From Rossellomorea marisflavi (GTDB lineage Bacteria; Bacillota; Bacilli; Bacillales; Bacillaceae_B): a stretch of 64,000 bases of DNA. Under the pieces are notes generated by a model. It ran no database searches and had not been told where the DNA came from. It saw only the letters and a list, made by a program, of their open reading frames with translations. Location: positions 1 to 64,000 of the forward strand of contig CP033051.1 in NCBI GenBank assembly GCA_003667865.1, read 5' to 3'. The number at the start of each line of letters is the position of its first letter. The stretch's first letter is position 1. Position numbers and translations under genes: made by a program. This document shows, one piece after another, positions 49,352-62,478 of this stretch.

Positions 49352-49954
49352 ATGTCTCGTTATACTGGCCCAAGCTGGAAATTATCTCGTCGTCTTGGAA
49401 TCTCTCTAAGCGGTACGGGTAAAGAATTAGAAAAGCGTCCTTACGCTCCTGGACAACACGGTCCTAACCAACGTAAAAAATTATCAGAATACGGTTTACA
49501 ACTACAAGAGAAGCAAAAGCTTCGTCATATGTATGGTGTAAATGAGCGTCAATTCCGTAACTTATTTGACCAAGCTGGTAAAATGCAAGGTAAACACGGT
49601 GAAAACTTCATGGCGTTACTAGAGTCTCGCTTAGACAACGTAGTATACCGTTTAGGTCTTGCTCGTACTCGTCGTCAAGCACGTCAATTAGTTAACCACG
49701 GTCACATCACTGTAGATGGTTCTCGCGTAGATATCCCATCTTACCGTTTACAATCTGGTCAAACAATCGGTGTTCGTGAAAAATCACGTAACCTTGACAT
49801 CGTTAAAGAAGCAATCGAAGTAAACAGCTTTGTTCCTGACTTCTTAACGTTTGATGCTGATAAATTAGAAGGTTCATTCACTCGTCTTCCAGAGCGCACT
49901 GAACTTCCAGCTGAAATTAACGAAGCACTTATCGTTGAGTTCTACTCTCGTTAA
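49352..49954 (+). CDS. rpsD: 30S ribosomal protein S4
   Basis: A 200-residue primary assembly protein of the 30S subunit that binds the 5' domain of 16S rRNA. It has the N-terminal [20 protein letters not shown] and the S4 RNA-binding domain near residue 92 ([40 protein letters not shown]). The B. subtilis-type form has no zinc cysteines, and none are seen. The ATG at 49352 has a perfect AAGGAGG. Codon use is strongly biased, as expected for a highly expressed gene. It is monocistronic with its own leader and terminator. Confidence 0.98.
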
Positions 49955-49968
49955 TCGTTTCATAAGAA

Positions 49969-49998
49969 AACCTCAACCATTTTGGTTGGGGTTTTTTG
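49969..49998 (+). terminator. rpsD terminator
   Basis: Stem AACCtCAACCA / TGGTTGgGGTT, a 3-base loop, then a T tract. Confidence 0.92.
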
Positions 49999-50001
49999 TT
50001 T

Positions 50002-50022
50002 GGGAAGCGTAGGGACGGTTCT
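50002..50022 (+). repeat. REP hairpin half at left edge of IS91-like copy 1
   Basis: GGGAAGCGTA followed by GGGACGGTTCT is the 5' arm and loop of a REP-like hairpin. The matching 3' arm TGTGCTTC lies at 52581-52588, on the other side of the IS. With G-T pairs the two arms are complementary. Confidence 0.7.
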
Positions 50023-50054
50023 TATAGGGGTCAATCGGAAGTTTTGCACGCAAA

Positions 50055-50088
50055 AAGGCACAACTAGTTCAGAATCTAGTTGTGCCTT
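50055..50088 (-). terminator. Terminator hairpin in IS91-like copy 1
   Basis: A perfect 13-bp stem AAGGCACAACTAG / CTAGTTGTGCCTT with an 8-base loop. A T run follows on the minus strand, downstream of the transposase gene. Between it and 50327 lie smaller GC hairpins (CCCCAGCCTATGGGG) of the presumed replication-origin end. Confidence 0.8.
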
Positions 50089-50327
50089 AAGCTTGTCATC
50101 CTCAAATGAACTGTCCGCAAAATTTTTGATTGCCCAAGAAGAATGAAGTCGCGGTCCCCAGCCTATGGGGTTTCAATCTTCCGGTGTTCTTTCTTTTTTT
50201 GTTTTTTTCATCTTTTTTTCATTTTTTTGTAACTTTCTTGTTCGTTGATTAGTTTGTTTTAGCTCTTTTAGATGTATTTTCCCCCTCCCCACTGAAGGGG
50301 CAATTTTTAAATATTCAACTGATCTTG

Positions 50328-51470
50328 TCAGGGTAGAGACTCCTGAACAAAGGATTCCATATGAAATTTCTTACAAACCGGACATAAGGTAACGTCTTTT
50401 TTTAGTAGAATAGACACAACCTCAATGGTGCTCAACCCTTCAAACCTTGGTTTATAAACAGGACTCTCTGTTAATTTTCTACACAACGCTAACTTCGTTT
50501 TTTTATTCCGATTTGCGAGTATCCCATAGTGCCTGATTTTGACAAATCCCTTCGGGAGAATATGCATTAAAAATCTGCGGATAAACTCAGTACCTTTGAG
50601 AGTCACCGTCTTTTTTTTATTATGATCTTTATAATCCTTTACTTGAATAGTGACAGTATCTGATTGAAATGAATGAATTCGATTATTTGAAATGGCAATT
50701 CGATGTGTGTAACGTCCAAGATATTCCATCACAGCCAAAGGACCTGAAAAGGTTCGTTTGGTATAACTGTACCAATTAAGGTCATAACACTCGTCTATTA
50801 ACTTCTGAAATCGTTTAGGATCTTTGTACTGTTCCGTGTTATTAAAAAACTGAAGCTTTCCTTCTTCATAATATCGTTTGAGATAATAAAGATACTTCCC
50901 ACGAAACTTCTTTGAAAGAACTTTAATCGGAATAAAGAATTTTTTACTCGTGTGACACCAATTGTTGTGTTTGTTTAACCCTCCAGCCAACACGACAGTG
51001 TGAAGGTGCGGGTGGAAATGAAGGTTTTGTCCCCATGTATGCAAGACAGAAAAGAACCCAATCTGTGCACCTAAGTATTTTGGATCTCCGGCAAGCTCCG
51101 TTAATGTCTCCGCAACGGCTTTGTACATTAAATCATAAAGTAACTGTTGATTATGATAGATCATCATATGAAGCTGTTCTGGCATGGTAAATACAACATG
51201 AAAATAAGGAGCGTTCAGAATATCCTTCTTTCTCTTATCGACCCAAATATCTTTGTTGACTCCTTGGCAGAGTGAACAATGTCGATTTCTACAAGAATTA
51301 TATCTCACCGAAGTATGATGACAGCCTTTACATTCATAAGCATGTCCACCTATGGCGGAGGTGCGACAAGACATAATATCCCTAGTTGCTTTCAATTGTT
51401 CACGAGATAATTTAAATTGTTTTTTATACGAAGGATAAAAAGTATGAAACAGCTCTTGAACCGTACTCAT
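50328..51470 (-). CDS. IS91-family HUH transposase, copy 1
   Basis: A 380-residue rolling-circle transposase. The N-terminal zinc-binding domain has Cys/His pairs in HAYECKGCHHTSVRYNSC and RNRHCSLCQG (about 43-70). The HUH metal motif is QNLHFHPHLHTVVLAGG (about 150). The catalytic tyrosine region is MEYLGRYTHRIAISNNRI (about 250). A C-terminal zinc-like CPVCKKFH is near 362. Its ATG overlaps the stop of the recombinase gene (ATGA), so they are translated together. It nicks one strand and moves by replication without making a target duplication. Identical to copy 2. Confidence 0.93.
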   Translation of the reverse strand: MSTVQELFHTFYPSYKKQFKLSREQLKATRDIMSCRTSAIGGHAYECKGCHHTSVRYNSCRNRHCSLCQGVNKDIWVDKRKKDILNAPYFHVVFTMPEQLHMMIYHNQQLLYDLMYKAVAETLTELAGDPKYLGAQIGFFSVLHTWGQNLHFHPHLHTVVLAGGLNKHNNWCHTSKKFFIPIKVLSKKFRGKYLYYLKRYYEEGKLQFFNNTEQYKDPKRFQKLIDECYDLNWYSYTKRTFSGPLAVMEYLGRYTHRIAISNNRIHSFQSDTVTIQVKDYKDHNKKKTVTLKGTEFIRRFLMHILPKGFVKIRHYGILANRNKKTKLALCRKLTESPVYKPRFEGLSTIEVVSILLKKDVTLCPVCKKFHMESFVQESLP

Positions 51471-52336
51471 CTTTGTCGGCTACCTTCAGAATCTAAAGGA
51501 CTTTTGACTCCTATGTAACTTTTAGAAGTCATATGAAGGTAAGAAAGAGTGGTCACTAAGCTTTTGTGTCCAAGCAATTGTTGAATAAAAACAGGGTCAG
51601 TCCCATCTTCTAATAAGTGCGTTGAGAAACAATGCCTCAGCGTATGTGCTGAGATTCTAGAATCTAATTTTAGCTTGTTTCTTAGTTTAATAATTGTATT
51701 CTTAATCGTCTTGACATGGATGTGATCCTGACTATTTTGACCAGGAAATAACCAATCAGTAGGATGATATGTTTTTGTGAAGTTGGATCGAAAGTACTCT
51801 CTAAGCACTTTCAGTGCAGTTTCTGATAAAATCGTATACCGATTTGTGTTGTGTTTCGCGTGTTCCACACGGACTCTCATTGTTTTACTACATATATCTT
51901 GAATTTTTAACTTCGCTACTTCACTTACCCTTAATCCACTTCCATAGAGTAACGCAAGTATCGCTTTATGTTTAAGATTATCTGTAGAATTCAAAAGTGT
52001 CTGGATTTCTTCCCTAGAAGGGACAACTGGGAAGGTTTTAAGTCGTTTCATTCTAGGAACTTTTCTTGCGTTCCAATCTTTTTCTAATACAAACGTATAG
52101 AAAAATCGAATCGACGAGATATAATTATTAATGGTTCCTGGTGAAAGACCTTTTTCTTTTTTTAAGAAAAGAATATATTGTTGGATATCCTCTTCCTTTA
52201 ACTCTTGAATGGGAGTGTTTTGTTTTTCTAAATAGACGAAAAATGCCTGTATTCTTCTGAAGTAGGATTCTCTAGTAGAATGGGGTGTCCCTTTGAGTTC
52301 AAAGTAGAGTTCTATTTTTTGATTATATATGTTCAT
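51467..52336 (-). CDS. Tyrosine recombinase of the IS91-like element, copy 1
   Basis: A 289-residue integrase. It has an N-terminal SAM-like core-binding domain (about 8-90, KGLSPGTINNYISSIRFFYT) and a catalytic domain with Arg in LLYGSGLRVSEVAKLKI (about 140), HTLRHCFSTHLLEDG (HxxR, about 234), and LLGHKSLVTTLSYLHMTSKS with the nucleophilic Tyr (about 265). The frame begins at 52357, but ATG 52336 has a perfect AGGAGG. Its constant coupling to an HUH transposase suggests a role in resolving circles or cointegrates; that is inference. Confidence 0.9.
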   Translation of the reverse strand: MNIYNQKIELYFELKGTPHSTRESYFRRIQAFFVYLEKQNTPIQELKEEDIQQYILFLKKEKGLSPGTINNYISSIRFFYTFVLEKDWNARKVPRMKRLKTFPVVPSREEIQTLLNSTDNLKHKAILALLYGSGLRVSEVAKLKIQDICSKTMRVRVEHAKHNTNRYTILSETALKVLREYFRSNFTKTYHPTDWLFPGQNSQDHIHVKTIKNTIIKLRNKLKLDSRISAHTLRHCFSTHLLEDGTDPVFIQQLLGHKSLVTTLSYLHMTSKSYIGVKSPLDSEGSRQR

Positions 52337-52440
52337 AATTAGTTCCTCCTCTGACATTCATGAATTCTCTTAATTGGTGAATTCATCCATCAAGGAGGAG
52401 CACGACAAGAAGTATGTAGATGTGGTATGATAGGCATAAG

Positions 52441-52513
52441 AAAAAAGTATGTCCTCTCTCTTGGATTGTTTGGTTTGGCGATTAAACAATACCACAAGAA
52501 GGCATACTTTTTT
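52441..52513. other. Long hairpin at the head of IS91-like copy 1
   Basis: AAAAAAGTATG / CATACTTTTTT enclose a second stem ATTGTTT / AAACAAT. With T runs at both ends it is likely to stop transcription entering the element from outside. An identical structure is at 59238-59310. Confidence 0.65.
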
Positions 52514-52596
52514 TGTTTTTTCACTATTAAAATTATATTGGGCTTTTAAAGAGCCATCGCGTTAGCGATTTCGTTCTTCCTGTGCTTCTTTATCAT

Positions 52597-52629
52597 AGAA
52601 AAGAAGCATGAGATCCGTCCCCATGCTTC
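52597..52629 (-). terminator. Intact REP hairpin acting as ABC-operon terminator
   Basis: On the minus strand GAAGCATG, loop GGGACGGATCT, CATGCTTC, then TTTTC. It stands 8 bp past the ABC gene stop. Together with the split hairpin at 50002/52588 it forms an inverted REP pair. Confidence 0.75.
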
Positions 52630-52636
52630 CCCCATA

Positions 52637-54469
52637 TTACGATGCATCCTCAAACTGACTATTATAAAGATCCGTATAAAATCCATTTTGGGCTAATAAT
52701 TCTTTGTGATTACCACTTTCAATAATGTCTCCGTCTTTCATAACAAGGATGAGATCTGCATTTTTAATCGTTGATAGTCGATGAGCAATAACGAATGACG
52801 TTTTGCCCACTGTCAATTTATCCATCGCCTCTTGGATTAACACTTCTGTTCGTGTATCTACAGAGCTTGTTGCTTCGTCTAAAATAAGAAGTGGTGCATT
52901 TGACACCATTGCACGTGCTATAGTGATTAGCTGCTTTTGTCCAGCTGATAAATTTGCTTTATCATCTAGCACTGTGTCATATCCCATTGGCAGTGTTCCA
53001 ATAAAGTGATGAAGCCCTACTGCTTTACATGCTTCTTCGACTTCCTCATCCGTTACACCTTTTCTCGAATACACAATGTTCTCACGAATTGACCCTTCAA
53101 AAATCCACGTATCTTGTAACACCATACAGAATAGGTCGTGAATGTTTTGACGTGTTAAGTCTTTTGTTGAAATACCATCAATAAGTATTTCTCCGCCGTT
53201 TACCTCATAAAAGCGCATAAGAAGATTAATAAGTGTTGTTTTCCCAGCACCTGTTGGTCCGACTATTGCTACTTTTTGTCCTGCATATGCAGTTGCCGAA
53301 AAGTCGTTAATAATCATTTTATTTTCGTCATACCCAAACCGAACATGTTTAAATTCTACATTTCCTTTAGCCTCTTCTAGTACGTTTCTTTTCCCACTTT
53401 CATTCGCAAACTCTTCTTCTGCCAAAAATTCAAACACACGTTCACTTGCAGCAGCAGTTGATTGTAAGTTCGTAACAGCTTGTGCAAGTTGACTAAGTGG
53501 TTGCGTAAATAAACGAACATAAACGATAAAGGCCACGATTACCCCGAACGTAATGGTTCCATGAACTGCAAGCACTGCCCCCACAATACAAACAACAACA
53601 TACCCTAAGTTCCCAACGAACATCATTAGTGGCATCATCAGACCTGACATAAATTGAGATTTCCAAGCACTGTCATACAGTCTTGTATTAATTTCGTGAA
53701 ACGTATCCTTCGCTTTCTTTTCCGCGTTATACACCTTCACGATATTTTGACCAGTATAGATTTCTTCAATATGACCATTCAGCTTTCCAAGCTCTTGCTG
53801 TTGCAGAATAAAGTATTTTTGTGATTTTGATATAATAATAGTCATAAAACCAAACCCAACAAGTGTAGAAAGAATTGCAGCAATCGCCATAATCCAGTTT
53901 GTATAGAACATCATCACAAGAGATCCAATAAATAATGTTGCAGCCGATACAAGTCCACTTACGCTTTGGTTCATTGTCTGACCAATTAAGTCTACATCAT
54001 TCGTTACACGACTAAGTACATCCCCGGTACTTGTTGAATCAAAATATTTTAACGGAAGACGGTTAATCTTCGTTGATATATCGGTCCGTAAGTTTTTCGA
54101 AACACGCTGTGTGATTGTCGCCATAATAAATCCTTGAACATAGTTAAAAATAAATCCTACACCATATAGAAACGCTAAAATAGTGGCAATATGAACGACT
54201 GCATCAAGGTCTATTTCACCCATTAACCCTACTGCGATGATGTCAGTAATCTGACTAAGGAATTCTGGCCCAATAATGTTAAAAACCGATCCGACCATTG
54301 CTAAAATGAGTGCAATGATAATCATTGGTACATACTTTTGACAGTAAGACATGAGCTGTTTCATCGTTTTCTTGAAGTTTTTCGGTTTGCCACTACTAGA
54401 TTGTCTGGGTTCATCATGCTTTTTTGAGAGTTTATTTTGTTCTGACTCTGCCCTTTTACCCAATTTCAA
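52637..54469 (-). CDS. ABC multidrug exporter, subunit with canonical ATPase site
   Basis: A 610-residue half transporter: a basic arm, six membrane segments (about 50-330) and a C-terminal ATPase domain. Walker A is AIVGPTGAGKTTLINLLMRF (about 395), the signature is LSAGQKQ, Walker B is LLILDEATSSVD with the catalytic glutamate, and the switch histidine is in FVIAHRLSTI. The signature is altered (LSAGQ), which fits a heterodimer partner whose opposite site is degenerate. TTG 54469 overlaps the upstream ABC gene by 14 bp; TTG 54463 is an alternative start. It probably pairs with the next gene to export drugs. Confidence 0.92.
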   Translation of the reverse strand: MKLGKRAESEQNKLSKKHDEPRQSSSGKPKNFKKTMKQLMSYCQKYVPMIIIALILAMVGSVFNIIGPEFLSQITDIIAVGLMGEIDLDAVVHIATILAFLYGVGFIFNYVQGFIMATITQRVSKNLRTDISTKINRLPLKYFDSTSTGDVLSRVTNDVDLIGQTMNQSVSGLVSAATLFIGSLVMMFYTNWIMAIAAILSTLVGFGFMTIIISKSQKYFILQQQELGKLNGHIEEIYTGQNIVKVYNAEKKAKDTFHEINTRLYDSAWKSQFMSGLMMPLMMFVGNLGYVVVCIVGAVLAVHGTITFGVIVAFIVYVRLFTQPLSQLAQAVTNLQSTAAASERVFEFLAEEEFANESGKRNVLEEAKGNVEFKHVRFGYDENKMIINDFSATAYAGQKVAIVGPTGAGKTTLINLLMRFYEVNGGEILIDGISTKDLTRQNIHDLFCMVLQDTWIFEGSIRENIVYSRKGVTDEEVEEACKAVGLHHFIGTLPMGYDTVLDDKANLSAGQKQLITIARAMVSNAPLLILDEATSSVDTRTEVLIQEAMDKLTVGKTSFVIAHRLSTIKNADLILVMKDGDIIESGNHKELLAQNGFYTDLYNSQFEDAS

Positions 54470-56213
54470 GCTCCTCCTTTGTTAACTGAGAATACGCAAT
54501 TTCTTGATAAACACTGCAATCTTTCATAAGCTCATCATGTTTCCCAATACCAACAACTTTTCCTTCATCTAACACAACAATTCGATCAGCGTTCTTAATC
54601 GTTCCAATTCTCTGTGCAACAAGTAAAGTCGTTGCATCTTTAATCTCTTTTTTCAAAAGTGAACGCAATTGACGGTCCGTCTTATAATCCAGTGCGGAAA
54701 AGGAATCATCAAACAAATAGATTTCTGGCTTCTTATAAATTGCCCGAGCAATTGAAAGTCTTTGCTTCTGACCACCTGAAAGATTCATTCCACCTTGAGA
54801 AACGCTGCCTTCATACTGATTTTCCATTTTCTCTACAAACTCTTTCCCTTGAGCAATCTCAACTGCCCTTTGAACATCAACTTCAATATTTGTTTCATCA
54901 CTTCCATACGCAACATTTGAAGCGACTGTACCTCTAAACATCATGGACTTTTGTGATACATAGCCAAGCTTTTGTTGTAGTGCTTCGAGCGTATACTCTT
55001 TCACATTCACACCATCAACGAAAATTTCTCCTTCTGTTGCATCATAAAAACGTGGGAGTAAGTTAATTAATGTGCTTTTCCCACTACCCGTTGATCCAAT
55101 AAACGCCACCATTTCACCTTTATGTGCGGTAAAACTAATATCTTGAAGAATGTATTCAGCTGCATCGGGATACTTAAAGCTTACATTTCTGAATTCTACT
55201 TCCCCAATCAGCCCGGTCACTCCCTCTGTCACTGTTCCATCTGTAATCTTCGTTTTTGTATCAAGCACTTCATTAATCCTCTTTGCAGATACAGAAGCTC
55301 GTGGAAGCATAATAAAAACAATCGAAAGCATCATAAAAGCCATAATTACTTGCATCGCATATGTTGAGAACACGACCATATCTGCGAATAGATTCAATCG
55401 ATCTGGAACGGCCGCATCATAAATTAAAATCGCCCCAATCCAGTAAATCGCTAAACTAATTCCCGACATTATCAGAGTCATTGTTGGCATCATAATGGCC
55501 ATTGTTCTATTCGTAAATAGATTCGTTCGTGTTAACTCATCATTAGCCTCTTCAAACTTTTCTTCTTGATATTTTTCTGCATTGTATGCATGAACCACAC
55601 GAATTCCTGTTAAATTCTCTCTCGTTACACGGTTTAAATTATCGGTTAACGATTGTATAATTTTAAATTTTGGTAGAGCAATAAACACGATAATGGAAAG
55701 CATTATAATAAGAAATGCTACTGCAATTCCTGTTGCTGCTGACCATTGCCAGCTTTTCCCCATAATTTTGTAAATCGCCCATACTGCTAGAATCGGTGCC
55801 TTTACTATTGCCTGCAAACCCATTGCAATAAGCAATTGTACTTGTGTAATATCATTTGTCGAACGAGTAATTAAGCTTGAAGTAGAGAAACCATTAATTT
55901 CCTCCATAGAAAAAGACATCGTCTTTTCAAAAACCTTTGCGCGCATCCGAACGGAAAAACCAGCCGCTACCTTTGCAGCAAAAAAACCAACCAGCATCGC
56001 AGCAAACATACTACCTATTGCGCAAAGCAACATATAGCCACCTTGCACCATTACATCGCTAATTTTACTTCCTTCTGTTTGCACAAGTTTCGTAATTTCA
56101 CTCATATAATCAGGTAATTTCAAGTCAAGCCAAACCTGTATCACAATGAAGGCTAAACTAAAAAATACAAGCATCCATTCTTTCTTATGAAAGTATTTAA
56201 ATATTTTCAGCAT
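54456..56213 (-). CDS. ABC multidrug exporter, subunit with degenerate ATPase site
   Basis: A 585-residue half transporter with six membrane segments (about 12-310) and an ATPase domain. Walker A is AFIGSTGSGKSTLINLLPRF (about 375) and the signature is normal (LSGGQKQ). But Walker B reads YLFDDSFSALD, with Asp in place of the catalytic Glu, and the switch motif is LLVAQRIGTI, with Gln in place of His. These are the hallmarks of the noncatalytic half of heterodimeric exporters such as BmrCD or TM287/288. The ATG at 56213 has AAGGAG. It is the first ABC gene after marR, with a MarR-type operator just upstream. Confidence 0.93.
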   Translation of the reverse strand: MLKIFKYFHKKEWMLVFFSLAFIVIQVWLDLKLPDYMSEITKLVQTEGSKISDVMVQGGYMLLCAIGSMFAAMLVGFFAAKVAAGFSVRMRAKVFEKTMSFSMEEINGFSTSSLITRSTNDITQVQLLIAMGLQAIVKAPILAVWAIYKIMGKSWQWSAATGIAVAFLIIMLSIIVFIALPKFKIIQSLTDNLNRVTRENLTGIRVVHAYNAEKYQEEKFEEANDELTRTNLFTNRTMAIMMPTMTLIMSGISLAIYWIGAILIYDAAVPDRLNLFADMVVFSTYAMQVIMAFMMLSIVFIMLPRASVSAKRINEVLDTKTKITDGTVTEGVTGLIGEVEFRNVSFKYPDAAEYILQDISFTAHKGEMVAFIGSTGSGKSTLINLLPRFYDATEGEIFVDGVNVKEYTLEALQQKLGYVSQKSMMFRGTVASNVAYGSDETNIEVDVQRAVEIAQGKEFVEKMENQYEGSVSQGGMNLSGGQKQRLSIARAIYKKPEIYLFDDSFSALDYKTDRQLRSLLKKEIKDATTLLVAQRIGTIKNADRIVVLDEGKVVGIGKHDELMKDCSVYQEIAYSQLTKEELEIG

Positions 56214-56238
56214 TTACTTCTCTCCTTAGCTACCCTTT

Positions 56239-56257
56239 TATCTAACACTGTTAGGTA
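56239..56257. promoter_or_regulatory. MarR-type operator before the ABC genes
   Basis: TATCTAACACTGTTAGGTA. It is the same dyad as at 56746, with two changes (one in the spacer, one in the right half-site). It lies 26 bp before the first ABC gene's start codon. Confidence 0.65.
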
Positions 56258-56263
56258 ATTGCG

Positions 56264-56294
56264 AAAAATATGACAGACCTTTTAACTCGGTCTG
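56264..56294 (-). terminator. Weak terminator after marR
   Basis: Stem CAGACC / GGTCTG with a loop of 9 bases; TTTTT follows 5 bases later on the minus strand. May allow partial read-through into the ABC genes. Confidence 0.45.
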
Positions 56295-56295
56295 C

Positions 56296-56724
56296 TTATT
56301 GCATTTCATTTGATTGATGGATTTCGTGAATCCGTTTCATAATCCTTACAAATTCCATAGAATCATGCTCACCAAGCTGCTCAAATGTTTTTATCATTAT
56401 TTCCATTGCCTTCTCAAACTCCGCTTCCATAAACGTTTTACCGATATCTGTAATCTTAACAATAACAACACGTTTATCACTAACATCTCGATGCCGTTCA
56501 ATGAAGTTTTTCTTTGATAAGCTGTTTAACGTAGACGCAACACGAGGTGTTGTCAAACAAAGCTTCTCACTTAGTTCTCCTGCTGTCACACCGTTATCTT
56601 CCATAAGAAAACCTAAAATGCGCCTCTCCCCATGTGAAACATCTTCGACCTTTTTTTGAAATGGTCCTTTTCCCGTCATCCTGATTGAATGGAAAAATTC
56701 CTTGGCTAAAGCATTATAATCCAT
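56296..56724 (-). CDS. MarR family transcriptional regulator
   Basis: A 142-residue winged-helix repressor: GERRILGFLMEDNGVTAGEL (about 32), then the recognition helix region LCLTTPRVASTLNSLSKKNF (about 55), and the wing IERHRDVSDKRVVIVKITD. The frame opens at GTG 56733; ATG 56724 has GAAGGTG properly spaced and is preferred. It precedes two ABC exporter genes. A 19-bp palindrome overlaps its own -10 box, and a near copy lies before the ABC genes. So it probably represses both and is released by a drug ligand. Confidence 0.92.
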   Translation of the reverse strand: MDYNALAKEFFHSIRMTGKGPFQKKVEDVSHGERRILGFLMEDNGVTAGELSEKLCLTTPRVASTLNSLSKKNFIERHRDVSDKRVVIVKITDIGKTFMEAEFEKAMEIMIKTFEQLGEHDSMEFVRIMKRIHEIHQSNEMQ

Positions 56725-56745
56725 ACTCAACACCTTCCGATAATA

Positions 56746-56764
56746 TATCTAACACTATTAGATA
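56746..56764. promoter_or_regulatory. MarR-type operator in the marR promoter
   Basis: A perfect 19-bp dyad TATCTAA-CACTA-TTAGATA that overlaps the -10 box of the marR promoter. Confidence 0.75.
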
Positions 56765-56785
56765 ATAGTTTTTAGAATCTGTCAA
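56757..56785 (-). promoter_or_regulatory. SigA promoter of marR
   Basis: Minus strand -35 TTGACA (56785-56780), 17-base spacer, -10 TCTAAT (56762-56757). The edge of the IS91-like copy 2 flank lies about 14 bp upstream of the -35. Confidence 0.75.
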
Positions 56786-56798
56786 GGGGAAGCGCGGG

Positions 56799-56819
56799 GG
56801 GAAGCGCGGGGACGGTTCT
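56799..56819 (+). repeat. REP hairpin half at left edge of IS91-like copy 2
   Basis: GGGAAGCGCG followed by GGGACGGTTCT. The matching arm TGCGCTTCC lies at 59378-59386, past the element. A partial tandem duplicate (GGGGAAGCGCGG) precedes it. Confidence 0.7.
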
Positions 56820-56851
56820 TATAGGGGTCAATCGGAAGTTTTGCACGCAAA

Positions 56852-56885
56852 AAGGCACAACTAGTTCAGAATCTAGTTGTGCCTT
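56852..56885 (-). terminator. Terminator hairpin in IS91-like copy 2
   Basis: Identical to the copy 1 hairpin: stem AAGGCACAACTAG / CTAGTTGTGCCTT, downstream of the transposase gene. Confidence 0.8.
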
Positions 56886-57124
56886 AAGCTTGTCATCCTC
56901 AAATGAACTGTCCGCAAAATTTTTGATTGCCCAAGAAGAATGAAGTCGCGGTCCCCAGCCTATGGGGTTTCAATCTTCCGGTGTTCTTTCTTTTTTTGTT
57001 TTTTTCATCTTTTTTTCATTTTTTTGTAACTTTCTTGTTCGTTGATTAGTTTGTTTTAGCTCTTTTAGATGTATTTTCCCCCTCCCCACTGAAGGGGCAA
57101 TTTTTAAATATTCAACTGATCTTG

Positions 57125-58267
57125 TCAGGGTAGAGACTCCTGAACAAAGGATTCCATATGAAATTTCTTACAAACCGGACATAAGGTAACGTCTTTTTTT
57201 AGTAGAATAGACACAACCTCAATGGTGCTCAACCCTTCAAACCTTGGTTTATAAACAGGACTCTCTGTTAATTTTCTACACAACGCTAACTTCGTTTTTT
57301 TATTCCGATTTGCGAGTATCCCATAGTGCCTGATTTTGACAAATCCCTTCGGGAGAATATGCATTAAAAATCTGCGGATAAACTCAGTACCTTTGAGAGT
57401 CACCGTCTTTTTTTTATTATGATCTTTATAATCCTTTACTTGAATAGTGACAGTATCTGATTGAAATGAATGAATTCGATTATTTGAAATGGCAATTCGA
57501 TGTGTGTAACGTCCAAGATATTCCATCACAGCCAAAGGACCTGAAAAGGTTCGTTTGGTATAACTGTACCAATTAAGGTCATAACACTCGTCTATTAACT
57601 TCTGAAATCGTTTAGGATCTTTGTACTGTTCCGTGTTATTAAAAAACTGAAGCTTTCCTTCTTCATAATATCGTTTGAGATAATAAAGATACTTCCCACG
57701 AAACTTCTTTGAAAGAACTTTAATCGGAATAAAGAATTTTTTACTCGTGTGACACCAATTGTTGTGTTTGTTTAACCCTCCAGCCAACACGACAGTGTGA
57801 AGGTGCGGGTGGAAATGAAGGTTTTGTCCCCATGTATGCAAGACAGAAAAGAACCCAATCTGTGCACCTAAGTATTTTGGATCTCCGGCAAGCTCCGTTA
57901 ATGTCTCCGCAACGGCTTTGTACATTAAATCATAAAGTAACTGTTGATTATGATAGATCATCATATGAAGCTGTTCTGGCATGGTAAATACAACATGAAA
58001 ATAAGGAGCGTTCAGAATATCCTTCTTTCTCTTATCGACCCAAATATCTTTGTTGACTCCTTGGCAGAGTGAACAATGTCGATTTCTACAAGAATTATAT
58101 CTCACCGAAGTATGATGACAGCCTTTACATTCATAAGCATGTCCACCTATGGCGGAGGTGCGACAAGACATAATATCCCTAGTTGCTTTCAATTGTTCAC
58201 GAGATAATTTAAATTGTTTTTTATACGAAGGATAAAAAGTATGAAACAGCTCTTGAACCGTACTCAT
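57125..58267 (-). CDS. IS91-family HUH transposase, copy 2
   Basis: Identical in all 380 residues to the transposase at 50328-51470. It has the same zinc-binding Cys/His cluster, HUH motif (HFHPHLH) and catalytic Tyr region. The reading frame is intact, so this copy should be active. Its start overlaps the recombinase stop by four bases. Confidence 0.93.
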   Translation of the reverse strand: MSTVQELFHTFYPSYKKQFKLSREQLKATRDIMSCRTSAIGGHAYECKGCHHTSVRYNSCRNRHCSLCQGVNKDIWVDKRKKDILNAPYFHVVFTMPEQLHMMIYHNQQLLYDLMYKAVAETLTELAGDPKYLGAQIGFFSVLHTWGQNLHFHPHLHTVVLAGGLNKHNNWCHTSKKFFIPIKVLSKKFRGKYLYYLKRYYEEGKLQFFNNTEQYKDPKRFQKLIDECYDLNWYSYTKRTFSGPLAVMEYLGRYTHRIAISNNRIHSFQSDTVTIQVKDYKDHNKKKTVTLKGTEFIRRFLMHILPKGFVKIRHYGILANRNKKTKLALCRKLTESPVYKPRFEGLSTIEVVSILLKKDVTLCPVCKKFHMESFVQESLP

Positions 58268-59133
58268 CTTTGTCGGCTACCTTCAGAATCTAAAGGACTT
58301 TTGACTCCTATGTAACTTTTAGAAGTCATATGAAGGTAAGAAAGAGTGGTCACTAAGCTTTTGTGTCCAAGCAATTGTTGAATAAAAACAGGGTCAGTCC
58401 CATCTTCTAATAAGTGCGTTGAGAAACAATGCCTCAGCGTATGTGCTGAGATTCTAGAATCTAATTTTAGCTTGTTTCTTAGTTTAATAATTGTATTCTT
58501 AATCGTCTTGACATGGATGTGATCCTGACTATTTTGACCAGGAAATAACCAATCAGTAGGATGATATGTTTTTGTGAAGTTGGATCGAAAGTACTCTCTA
58601 AGCACTTTCAGTGCAGTTTCTGATAAAATCGTATACCGATTTGTGTTGTGTTTCGCGTGTTCCACACGGACTCTCATTGTTTTACTACATATATCTTGAA
58701 TTTTTAACTTCGCTACTTCACTTACCCTTAATCCACTTCCATAGAGTAACGCAAGTATCGCTTTATGTTTAAGATTATCTGTAGAATTCAAAAGTGTCTG
58801 GATTTCTTCCCTAGAAGGGACAACTGGGAAGGTTTTAAGTCGTTTCATTCTAGGAACTTTTCTTGCGTTCCAATCTTTTTCTAATACAAACGTATAGAAA
58901 AATCGAATCGACGAGATATAATTATTAATGGTTCCTGGTGAAAGACCTTTTTCTTTTTTTAAGAAAAGAATATATTGTTGGATATCCTCTTCCTTTAACT
59001 CTTGAATGGGAGTGTTTTGTTTTTCTAAATAGACGAAAAATGCCTGTATTCTTCTGAAGTAGGATTCTCTAGTAGAATGGGGTGTCCCTTTGAGTTCAAA
59101 GTAGAGTTCTATTTTTTGATTATATATGTTCAT
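58264..59133 (-). CDS. Tyrosine recombinase of the IS91-like element, copy 2
   Basis: Identical to the recombinase at 51467-52336, with the R, HxxR, H and Y catalytic residues intact. ATG 59133 is preferred because it has AGGAGG at good spacing. The frame itself opens at 59154. Confidence 0.9.
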   Translation of the reverse strand: MNIYNQKIELYFELKGTPHSTRESYFRRIQAFFVYLEKQNTPIQELKEEDIQQYILFLKKEKGLSPGTINNYISSIRFFYTFVLEKDWNARKVPRMKRLKTFPVVPSREEIQTLLNSTDNLKHKAILALLYGSGLRVSEVAKLKIQDICSKTMRVRVEHAKHNTNRYTILSETALKVLREYFRSNFTKTYHPTDWLFPGQNSQDHIHVKTIKNTIIKLRNKLKLDSRISAHTLRHCFSTHLLEDGTDPVFIQQLLGHKSLVTTLSYLHMTSKSYIGVKSPLDSEGSRQR

Positions 59134-59237
59134 AATTAGTTCCTCCTCTGACATTCATGAATTCTCTTAATTGGTGAATTCATCCATCAAGGAGGAGCAC
59201 GACAAGAAGTATGTAGATGTGGTATGATAGGCATAAG

Positions 59238-59310
59238 AAAAAAGTATGTCCTCTCTCTTGGATTGTTTGGTTTGGCGATTAAACAATACCACAAGAAGGC
59301 ATACTTTTTT
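59238..59310. other. Long hairpin at the head of IS91-like copy 2
   Basis: Same structure as at 52441-52513. Nested stems AAAAAAGTATG/CATACTTTTTT and ATTGTTT/AAACAAT upstream of the recombinase gene. Confidence 0.65.
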
Positions 59311-59402
59311 TGTTTTTTCACTATTAAAATTATATTGGGCTTTTAAAGAGCCATCGCGTTAGCGATTTCGTTCTTCTTGCGCTTCCTTAATCATAGAAAA
59401 GA

Positions 59403-59418
59403 AGCATGAGAACCGTCC
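59403..59418 (-). repeat. Half of a REP hairpin split by IS1182
   Basis: GAAGCATG plus AGAACCGTCC. The other half (GAACCGTCC then CCATGCTTC) is at 61146-61163, past the IS1182 element. Joined, they form GAAGCATG, loop of 11, CATGCTTC. Confidence 0.75.
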
Positions 59419-59501
59419 GAGACCAGTGAAAAAGTCAGTTATCATTTATAACCTTCGGTTTTAAGTTTGTTCTGCTTGACTTAAATAATTTTAAACACAA
59501 A

Positions 59502-59564
59502 AAAGCCCTCCTAATGTTATAATTTTGTATCGACCAAGAAACAAAATTTTACTAGGGGGGCTTT
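59502..59564 (+). promoter_or_regulatory. Hairpin that sequesters the IS1182 transposase ribosome site
   Basis: AAAGCCctCCTA pairs with TAGgggGGCTTT, and inside that AATTTTGT pairs with ACAAAATT. The ribosome site GGGGGG (59555-59560) is in the 3' arm, so transcripts read in from outside would be poorly translated. Confidence 0.6.
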
Positions 59565-59567
59565 ATT

Positions 59568-61103
59568 ATGCTTCGAATTGAGCCAAAGCAATCAAGTTTT
59601 CATTCAATATTATATGATAAAATTCCAGAAAATCATACCCTTAAGAAGATTTCTTTAGTAGTAGATTTTAGTTTTATTAATATTTTACTAGCGGACAGTT
59701 ATTGCGCAGGATTTGGTCGTCCTGCAAAAGAACCAGAATTAATGTGTAAACTTCTCTTATTACAACAACTCTGTAACCTTTCAGATGAGAAGCTTATTAT
59801 GGATGCAAATTTAAACCTTGCCCACTTATATTTCCTTGGGGTAAATCCTGAAACGGTCCTACCTGATAAAAGTCTATTATCCAAATTTAGAACGCAACGC
59901 CTTGGAGAAACCACGCTCGATGAGATCATTACTGAGGTCGTAAGACAATGTATAGAACAAGGTATTATTGAGAGTAAGAGTGTTAGTATTGACTCTACTC
60001 ATATAGAAGCGAATACAAAAAAGAAAACCCCTGAAAGAATCATGAAGCACTTAGCTAAAAGAATTATCAAGACTTACGAAGAAGAATCCGGTAATCCCTT
60101 AGAAAATCTACCAGCAATTCCAGAGTACCAGGAAATAGAGGATCACAAAGAAGCAAAAACTGTGATGAAAACCTATTTAGAAACTGTCATTGACGAAGTC
60201 AATAAGCGTACATCTGTTAAAGAGTCTCAGACTCATAAGGTCATTCAAAAGTCTCGTGAGATACTAAAAGACCCAAAGTTTTTGAACCAAAAAAGTATTC
60301 GTTCCCTTATCGATGAAGACGCAAGGGTTGGCAGGAAGAGTAAAACGCAAGACTTCTATGGCTATAAAACGGAGTTTGTGATGACAACGGATGAACGAAT
60401 TATTACTTCAGTAAGGACTTCAGATGGTGCTTATGTGGATGGCAGTTATGCAAAGGAAATGTTGGCGGAAACGCAAAAAGCAGGTGTGATACTCGAAGAA
60501 GTCTACGGGGACAAAGCCTATTTTAGAAAGTCGATTCTTGAAGATATTAATGCCGTAAAAGCGAAAGCTTTTATACCTGTTAGTGCCACAGTCTACAGAA
60601 TAGATGAAAGTGAATTTACATACAACAAAGATTCCGATGAATGGCAGTGTAGTCAAGGGAATATCACTGTAAACAAGAAGTATCATAGTTCTAAAAGAAA
60701 AGATGGTACCAGAAGGGAAGGTTATAAATATTATTTTGAACTCAATCAATGTAAAGCGTGCCCTCTTCATGATGAGTGTGCTAAGACGAGTGCACGAAGA
60801 ATACTATCTGTGGGACTAAATTCAACTGAATTTTACGAGATCTCTCAATACCAAAAAACAGATGAGTTCAAAGAAAAGTATAAAAAGAGAGCCTCCATAG
60901 AAGGAAAAAACGCGGAGCTCAAAAGATTCCACGGCCTATCTCGAGCAAAGGGGTATGGTCTTTTAAGTGTGTCCATACAATCAAAATTGGCTGCATTAGC
61001 AGTAAATTTAAAGAGGATAGCAGCAATAGCAGCTTCCTCTTTAACTGTATTTTTAGATAAATATCTAATGACCCACTTTAATTTTCAACTATTTACCATT
61101 TAG
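59568..61103 (+). CDS. IS1182-family transposase
   Basis: A 511-residue DDE transposase. The N-terminal domain (about 1-115; EPELMCKLLLLQQLCNLSDE, LPDKSLLSKFRTQRLGE) binds DNA. The catalytic residues are in KSVSIDSTHIEANTKKK (first Asp, about 141), LEEVYGDKAYFRKSILED (second Asp, about 310) and KKRASIEGKNAELKRFHGLS (Glu, about 446). A Cys-rich insert QCKACPLHDECAKTSARR (about 395) is typical. The ATG at 59568 follows a G-rich site held in a hairpin. The frame is full length, so the element may be active. Confidence 0.95.
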   Translation: MLRIEPKQSSFHSILYDKIPENHTLKKISLVVDFSFINILLADSYCAGFGRPAKEPELMCKLLLLQQLCNLSDEKLIMDANLNLAHLYFLGVNPETVLPDKSLLSKFRTQRLGETTLDEIITEVVRQCIEQGIIESKSVSIDSTHIEANTKKKTPERIMKHLAKRIIKTYEEESGNPLENLPAIPEYQEIEDHKEAKTVMKTYLETVIDEVNKRTSVKESQTHKVIQKSREILKDPKFLNQKSIRSLIDEDARVGRKSKTQDFYGYKTEFVMTTDERIITSVRTSDGAYVDGSYAKEMLAETQKAGVILEEVYGDKAYFRKSILEDINAVKAKAFIPVSATVYRIDESEFTYNKDSDEWQCSQGNITVNKKYHSSKRKDGTRREGYKYYFELNQCKACPLHDECAKTSARRILSVGLNSTEFYEISQYQKTDEFKEKYKKRASIEGKNAELKRFHGLSRAKGYGLLSVSIQSKLAALAVNLKRIAAIAASSLTVFLDKYLMTHFNFQLFTI

Positions 61104-61188
61104 GGGAACAGAGAAAGAAAAAAACGTTAGTTTTTCACTGGTCTCGAACCGTCCCCATGCTTCATGCTTCCTCCACCCATGCTTCAAA

Positions 61189-62478
<1,290 letters not shown>

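Follow-up and report, generated by a model that had tools for sequence, protein, structure and literature searches.

The window analysed here is a 64,000-nt stretch of the Rossellomorea marisflavi chromosome (contig CP033051.1, positions 1 to 64,000), in which two copies of an IS91-like element and one IS1182-family element interrupt members of one family of repetitive extragenic palindromic (REP) sequences (Table 1). The genome, G000, is a single contig of 4,591,517 bp, and the window is G000:C1:1-64000; other G numbers denote other genomes and L numbers denote loci. The REP is 27 nt long and consists of GAAGCNNNN, the centre GAACCGTCC and CNNNGCTTC, with the loop GAANCGTCC. As was claimed in the original prediction, both IS91-like copies and the IS1182 element split hairpins of this one family; the junctions are exact, the coordinates are essentially those first given, and a second, inverted hairpin lies past each right arm, one intact and the other split by IS1182. 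The arms are imperfect, with 6/8 Watson-Crick pairs at copy 1 and 7/8 at copy 2, and the two copies themselves have zero differences across 2558 bp. We consider it very probable, judging from the insertion sites, that two unrelated transposons use the REP family as their landing site and would read different features of it, the IS91-like element a 10-nt word, GAACCGTCCC, and the IS1182 element the palindrome.

Table 1. Insertions in the window and the REPs that they interrupt.
Feature	Positions	Strand	Remarks
REP left piece, split by IS91-like copy 1	50004..50021		target word GAACCGTCCC on minus strand, 50012-50021
IS91-like element copy 1	50022..52579	minus	2558 bp; ori end left, abutting GAAC; ends set by the G004 empty site
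IS91-like copy 1, ter end	right side		GAAGAACGAAATCGC with hairpin ATCGC-TAAC-GCGAT
IS91-family transposase, 380 aa	50328..51470	minus	Zn_Tnp_IS91 + Y2_Tnp; HxH 155-157, YxxxY 250
Xer-like tyrosine recombinase, 296 aa, aboard IS91-like copy 1	51467..52357	minus
REP right piece, split by IS91-like copy 1	52580..52588
Intact REP, inverted, REPIN-like partner of the copy 1 REP	52603..52629	plus	gap 14 bp
REP left piece, split by IS91-like copy 2	56801..56818		target word 56809-56818 (minus)
IS91-like element copy 2	56819..59376	minus	transposase 57125-58267, recombinase 58264-59154
REP right piece, split by IS91-like copy 2	59377..59385		gap 15 to second REP
Second REP, left part	59401..59418	plus	3' end is the 9-bp duplication GAACCGTCC, 59410-59418
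IS1182-family element	59419..61145	plus	ends GAGACC...GGTCTC; DDE transposase 59568-61103
Second duplication copy and right REP arm	61146..61163	plus	GAACCGTCC 61146-61154; CCATGCTTC 61155-61163

Both elements belong to named families. The NCBIfam IS91 model matches the first transposase at 442 bits (cut-off 125), and Pfam and NCBIfam name a Zn_Tnp_IS91 plus Y2_Tnp protein, that is, a Y2 HUH transposase with the N-terminal Zn-binding domain of the IS91 family, accompanied by a Xer-like tyrosine recombinase. The NCBIfam model for IS1182-family DDE transposases gives 382 bits (cut-off 270) with the second element, which also has the terminal inverted repeats GAGACC...GGTCTC.

A listing of the copies that DNA searches find in the genome, the check that was named in the original prediction, gives a uniform picture. 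The four full IS91-like copies in G000 (at 50002, 56799, 713528 and 722236 in DNA search coordinates) are identical over 2558 bp, and all four lie between two halves of a REP that match each other, with arms that vary from site to site. DNA searches at identities of at least 71% found eight IS1182 copies, six at 99-100% and two at 71%, and a REP is split in 8/8. In G000, the REPs are entered at one position within each element type. The strong target choice claimed earlier is confirmed, and the pattern is far beyond chance; the REP family occupies about 0.04% of the chromosome.

Close IS91-like matches are present in 4/199 related genomes, G000 included. The same-genus genome G003 has seven copies (77-79% protein identity), which are nearly identical within each of two groups, G064 has one (74%, with one internal stop) and G152 has two partial copies. 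The association with REPs at one position holds for 6/7 copies in G003. Four of these have plain REP arms on both sides, the 5' arm of L049 has diverged and still partly pairs, and at L051 the 5' arm is present and the 3' arm degraded; the seventh copy, L052, has neither arm. Both arms are present in G064. In G152, the fragment that contains an ori end has the 3' arm GTGCTCC, and in the other copy, which has no ori end, the ter end comes after the REP arm GAAGCAAGA. A class-wide search with the IS91 transposase gave matches in 6/398 genomes including G000, with at most 52% identity outside G000, and these were excluded from the counts; a scan of genome contigs found just three relatives, all distant (45-48%). 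In the G152 partial copy L042 (G152:C1:215890), the sequence after the transposase leads into a hairpin that is REP-like but differs in its arms (GGAAACAC..GTGTTTCC around GAACCGTCC), as if a REP were inside the element, and a long palindrome stands directly before the ter end in the relatives L124 (G218:C1:1687227, 52%; GCCCTTATGT...ACATAAGGGC) and L126 (G364:C7:4140, 49%; GCGCATATGTG...CACATATGCGC), of unrelated sequence.

The ori end could be located in 13 of the 14 IS91-like loci by a search that did not require the word (four in G000, seven in G003, one in G064 and one G152 fragment; 12 are from complete elements), and GAACCGTCCC comes next in 13/13. The word was defined in G000, and the other genomes serve as the test. 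As in the IS91 family, there is no target duplication and the tetranucleotide GAAC lies at the ori end in every case. The four-base target of that family is not what we found, however, as the whole word stands at all 13 ori ends, one of them outside the REPs.

That one copy, L052 (G003:C1:1531799-1534354), interrupts a spore-germination permease gene, the upstream part of which matches Spore_permease (Pfam E 1.7e-39), and no REP is present. A search of 36 same-genus genomes with the 600 bp upstream of L052 gave 11 matches, including G003 and G000. G004, which is 99% identical over the 600 bp, has the empty site ...TTTTTAGC|GAACCGTCCCTGC..., and the word GAACCGTCCC is already there. The G004/G003 pair fixes the span of the element as GAAGAACGAAATCGC to GACCCCTTTAA and shows that it enters directly 5' of GAAC without a duplication. 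At the corresponding position, G013, G010 and G032 carry variants of the word, which is expected because this is coding sequence. A GerAC-type gene lies downstream of the interrupted permease gene in G003.

Pairing at the targets was measured by Watson-Crick counts and folding energies. The 27 nt of the permease target give 0.0 kcal/mol, its 71-nt context behaves like shuffled sequences (z -0.12), and the site as it stands in G004 has 3/8 Watson-Crick pairs, a number reached by 37.5% of random arms; a count that includes wobble pairs gave 6/8. The 11 reconstructed REP sites of the IS91-like copies fold at -2.1 to -6.3 kcal/mol, except L051 at 0.0. When 2000 random arms were placed around the word, 12% reached -2.5 kcal/mol and 36% gave 0.0.

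The distribution of the word accounts well for where the IS91-like element is found. There are 23 copies of GAACCGTCCC in G000, 77 in G003 and 11 in G064, and, read backwards, it is found 5, 14 and 2 times, respectively. By eye, 22 of the 23 words in G000 have one or both REP arms or lie in a split REP, and the remaining word (2000622) is within another inverted repeat. The 70 words of G003 that are away from IS91 copies comprise 63 with a REP-type arm, two in other palindromes and five with no palindrome (also by eye). Because the REPs hold nearly all copies of the word, an element that reads it would land in them about nine times in ten, and 11/12 complete copies are in fact there. The off-REP share of insertions in G003 (1/7) does not differ from that of words without a palindrome (5/70; Fisher p=0.45, with small numbers), and since it matches the availability of the word, an additional preference for folds would be unneeded. 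GAAC by itself occurs about 35,500 times in G000, as estimated from the window, and the chance of 4/4 copies at the 23 words by GAAC alone is about 2e-13. There is also a choice of loop within the REPs, as the IS91-like copies use GAACC in 4/4 cases and 11/52 REPs have GAACCGTCC (Fisher p=0.0037).

Seven IS91-like remnants were chosen from among the matches listed. Three ori-end remnants retain the word or most of it, G013 (GAACCGTCCCGTGTGCTC), G030 (CCGTCCCCATGATTC) and G005 (AAACCGTCCCC, with no arm), the G026 ter-end remnant is within a REP, and the G032 stretch matches the element interior only and is uninformative. The element was also searched for target words of 7-9 nt that could serve as a base-pairing guide; matches to the word, or to its reverse complement, did not exceed 7 nt, and a single match of 8 nt was to the word read backwards. 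Hence, a guide like that of IS608 was not seen in the element by this search.

The IS1182 sites display a different pattern. The loops used in G000 are GAACC three times, GAAAC twice (one of which reads GAAGC on the other side), GATCC, GAATC and GAAGC. Five of the six close copies have a 9-bp duplication that corresponds to the centre of the 27-mer, and the sixth has one of 8 bp. One of the two 71% copies has a 9-bp duplication and the other, L028 (G000:C1:1950476), has unequal halves; its 9-bp flanks are GAAACGTCC / GAAGCGTCC, as if it had recombined between two copies. The left edge of the duplication is the REP junction 9|10, which is also the entry point of the IS91-like element. IS1182 matches at 1e-150 occur in 8/199 genomes, G000 included, with seven copies outside G000, and a class-wide search (2/398 genomes including G000) added no copy. 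Three of these relatives are in hairpins with unrelated arms: L057 has arms AACCGC around GGACAGGTCC (-8.7 kcal/mol), L058 has GAATCA around GGACGGTTC (-4.4 kcal/mol) and L059 has GTCAGAGG around GACCTGTCC (-6.1 kcal/mol). The hairpin at L055 is REP-like and weak (-2.0 kcal/mol), its 3' arm being GCTTC and its 5' arm diverged, and only the 3' half is visible at L056. Thus, entry into inverted repeats of varied sequence, the mark of IS1272-like targeting, is found at the 8/8 G000 REPs and at L057, L058 and L059. The sites of the relatives are consistent with a reading of the palindrome and with what the relevant passages of PMC5678879 state about the IS1272/IS1182 family.

We would predict from these sites that the IS91-like element enters directly 5' of GAACCGTCCC with its ori end against GAAC, makes no duplication and does not need the hairpin; it would land in REPs since nearly all copies of the word sit there. 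The IS1182 element would read the palindrome, with staggered cuts that bound the central 9 nt of any loop variant, and those 9 nt would be duplicated. The junctions, words, duplications and one empty site are observed directly. Presumably the target is read by the transposases themselves or by the Xer-like partner of the IS91-like element, and the latter element would transpose by a rolling-circle route as its family suggests. Its target appears to be about 10 nt instead of the usual four, which outside the REPs is based on one clean event and the remnants. The Xer-like partner is a candidate for the reader of the word. Against this, the G218 relative (52%), which by eye has a recombinase-like protein, appears to join TATG, TATC and TATG in its three copies (by eye and without an empty site). 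One could go further and imagine that an IS91 lineage with a Xer-like recombinase swapped the four-base GAAC for a ten-base word from the REP loop of its hosts, perhaps read by the recombinase, so that the REPs became a dedicated safe harbour with junction 9/10 common to HUH enzymes of the rolling-circle type and DDE enzymes of the cut-and-paste type; this is a tentative idea that we would rather doubt.

Several observations weigh against the proposal that the two elements read word and palindrome, respectively. Only one clean event underlies the hairpin-free IS91-like site, L051 lacks a stable fold yet retains its 5' REP arm, and the ter-end remnants G000:733863 and G011 (C37) are away from REP arms. 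Folding alone is a weak discriminator, given the overlap of the REP sites with the random arms described above. CGTCCC is nearly invariant in the REP family, and for this reason the REP sites alone do not reveal how much of the 10-nt word is read. The contrast in loop use between the two elements (GAACC in 4/4 IS91-like and 3/8 IS1182 copies) is not significant alone (Fisher p=0.08). As for IS1182, L054 occupies a REP whose 3' arm is degraded (-0.3 kcal/mol), L060, the most distant relative (52% identity), lies where there is no palindrome, and the duplications of one G000 copy are unequal, as noted above.

The original prediction attributed all three insertions to structure-directed targeting of loops. 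This part of it stands for IS1182, where the 9-nt centre is duplicated, loop variants are tolerated and three relatives are in hairpins with unrelated arms. The IS91-like element might likewise pick a GAAC that a REP hairpin, extruded or single-stranded, exposes in its loop; 11 of its 12 complete copies are in recognisable REPs, 10 of those fold at -2.1 kcal/mol or better, and GAAC is at the loop edge. However, the word follows the ori end in 13/13 cases, the G004/G003 pair records an insertion at GAACCGTCCC in coding sequence without a hairpin, and the off-REP share in G003 follows the supply of palindrome-free words, which makes structure-directed targeting by this element improbable in our view. 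The constancy of the word after the ori end could also mean that the hairpin halves are fixed element ends that move with the element, an alternative raised with the original prediction. The arms vary between copies, though, and broadly co-vary within each site, arms are absent from the permease copy and the word was there before insertion, as the empty G004 site shows, so that fixed ends can be ruled out for practical purposes.

Two further explanations do without target choice of this kind, and we find both very hard to credit. Insertion could be nearly random at GAAC, with selection leaving copies only in harmless REPs. Intergenic insertions should be nearly neutral, but then neutral intergenic GAAC sites must, by our estimate, far exceed 23, and the permease copy breaks a gene and is still at the 10-mer. 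Alternatively, the copies could have spread by homologous recombination between REPs instead of by repeated transposition, as might be thought from the identity of the four G000 copies and the near identity within each of the two G003 groups. Here the REPs share just 27 bp of interrupted homology, the arms on the flanks are not alike, one IS91-like copy is outside any REP with a clean junction, and 7/8 IS1182 copies have matched 8-9 bp duplications.

The REP family itself has 60 matches at E<=1 and 52 at E<0.02 in G000 (4.59 Mb) with a covariance model built from an alignment of 17 intact copies, for which 150 out of 1947 first-look candidates were scored; searching with a simple pattern yields a comparable set. 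The loops of the 52 REPs start with GATCC (14), GAACC (12), GAAGC (12), GAAAC (6) and others (8), and two intact REPs fold at -6.5 kcal/mol (z -5.1 and -4.8). Inverted pairs have gaps of 15-17 bp in five cases, 1 bp in two and 79-93 bp in four. The five, at places other than those in the window, agree with the REPIN-like setting proposed earlier, and "REPIN-like" is a fair description of the pairs. A Y1 transposase gene of 274 aa (L033:1090-1914, minus; Y1_Tnp; G000:C1 about 697,120-697,950) has a REP on each side, at L033 1060-1086 and at 1893-1919. The second of these REPs overlaps the first codons of the open reading frame as listed, and five further REPs are close by. Its protein scores 73.6 bits with the NCBIfam model for REP-associated tyrosine transposases (RAYTs; cut-off 80). 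We regard it as a probable RAYT, with which the REP family would be associated. This gene, with its seven REPs, is about 1 kb from an IS1182 copy, and the genome is spore-former-like.

The rpsD-tyrS interval of G000 (window 49352-62451) also contains a MarR regulator and two ABC exporter genes (52637-56733; Pfam supports MarR and one ABC gene), with REPs and IS elements on both sides. In G003 and G026, the tyrS 3' end is within about 200 bp after rpsD (by eye). The MarR/ABC exporter block looks like an acquired cassette bracketed by REPs. A 27-mer with the REP pattern was not found past rpsD in 11 same-genus genomes (L113-L123, 551-701 bases each), and for that reason the window insertions cannot be dated by synteny.

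Insertion sequences that target REPs are established and palindrome-targeting IS1182 members have been reported; what is new here are the long IS91 word, a natural site without a fold and two chemistries that meet at one REP junction. REP targeting by insertion sequences invites an explanation based on folds, and this locus separates fold from sequence, as the same hairpins receive one element that is bound to the loop word, which it can also use outside a hairpin, and another indifferent to the loop variant. A natural empty-site pair also fixes the ends of an IS91-family element with a tyrosine recombinase. These results suggest a testable path by which a rolling-circle transposon could move from a 4-nt target to one of about 10 nt, which would be of interest for programmable insertion.

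The IS91-like element resembles IS91, IS801 and ISAzo26-type elements in its Zn-binding domain and Y2 HUH transposase, the absence of a duplication, GAAC by the ori end and a hairpin near the ter end; a plasmid match annotated as ISAzo26 has a tyrosine recombinase upstream, as here. It is unlike IS801, for which the portion of PMC3189936 considered gives 4-nt targets (GAAC, GGAC, CAAG and CGAC), in having GAACCGTCCC at 13/13 ori ends. Among the open-access literature matches listed, none described an IS91 member that targets REPs or a longer IS91 target. The REPs are like other REP/REPIN-RAYT systems in being short palindromes that form inverted pairs, with a Y1 transposase gene between REPs. 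They differ in that the GTAG (or terminal CGTC) tag, after which the super-families are named in the section of PMC3733652 used here, was not seen in the hairpin consensus or beside 52603-52629, the two places inspected. IS1272 is described in the passages from PMC5678879 as targeting, and replacing, inverted repeats without a duplication, and some IS1182 members as targeting palindromes; in the window, both arms remain and the central 9 nt are duplicated. The sections of PMC1525189 at hand describe REP-targeted elements (IS1397, IS621, ISPsy8, ISPa11, ISPpu9/10, ISRm22 and ISRm19) of which every copy interrupts a REP at a fixed position, the position being common to ISPpu9 and ISPpu10. They name the families IS3, IS110, IS4, IS256 and IS5, with IS1182 unmentioned there, and a table associates 1/7 IS91 copies in Shigella with REPs. 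In comparison, the two elements that meet at one REP position here are an HUH element of rolling-circle type and one of the DDE type, and their host is a spore-former.

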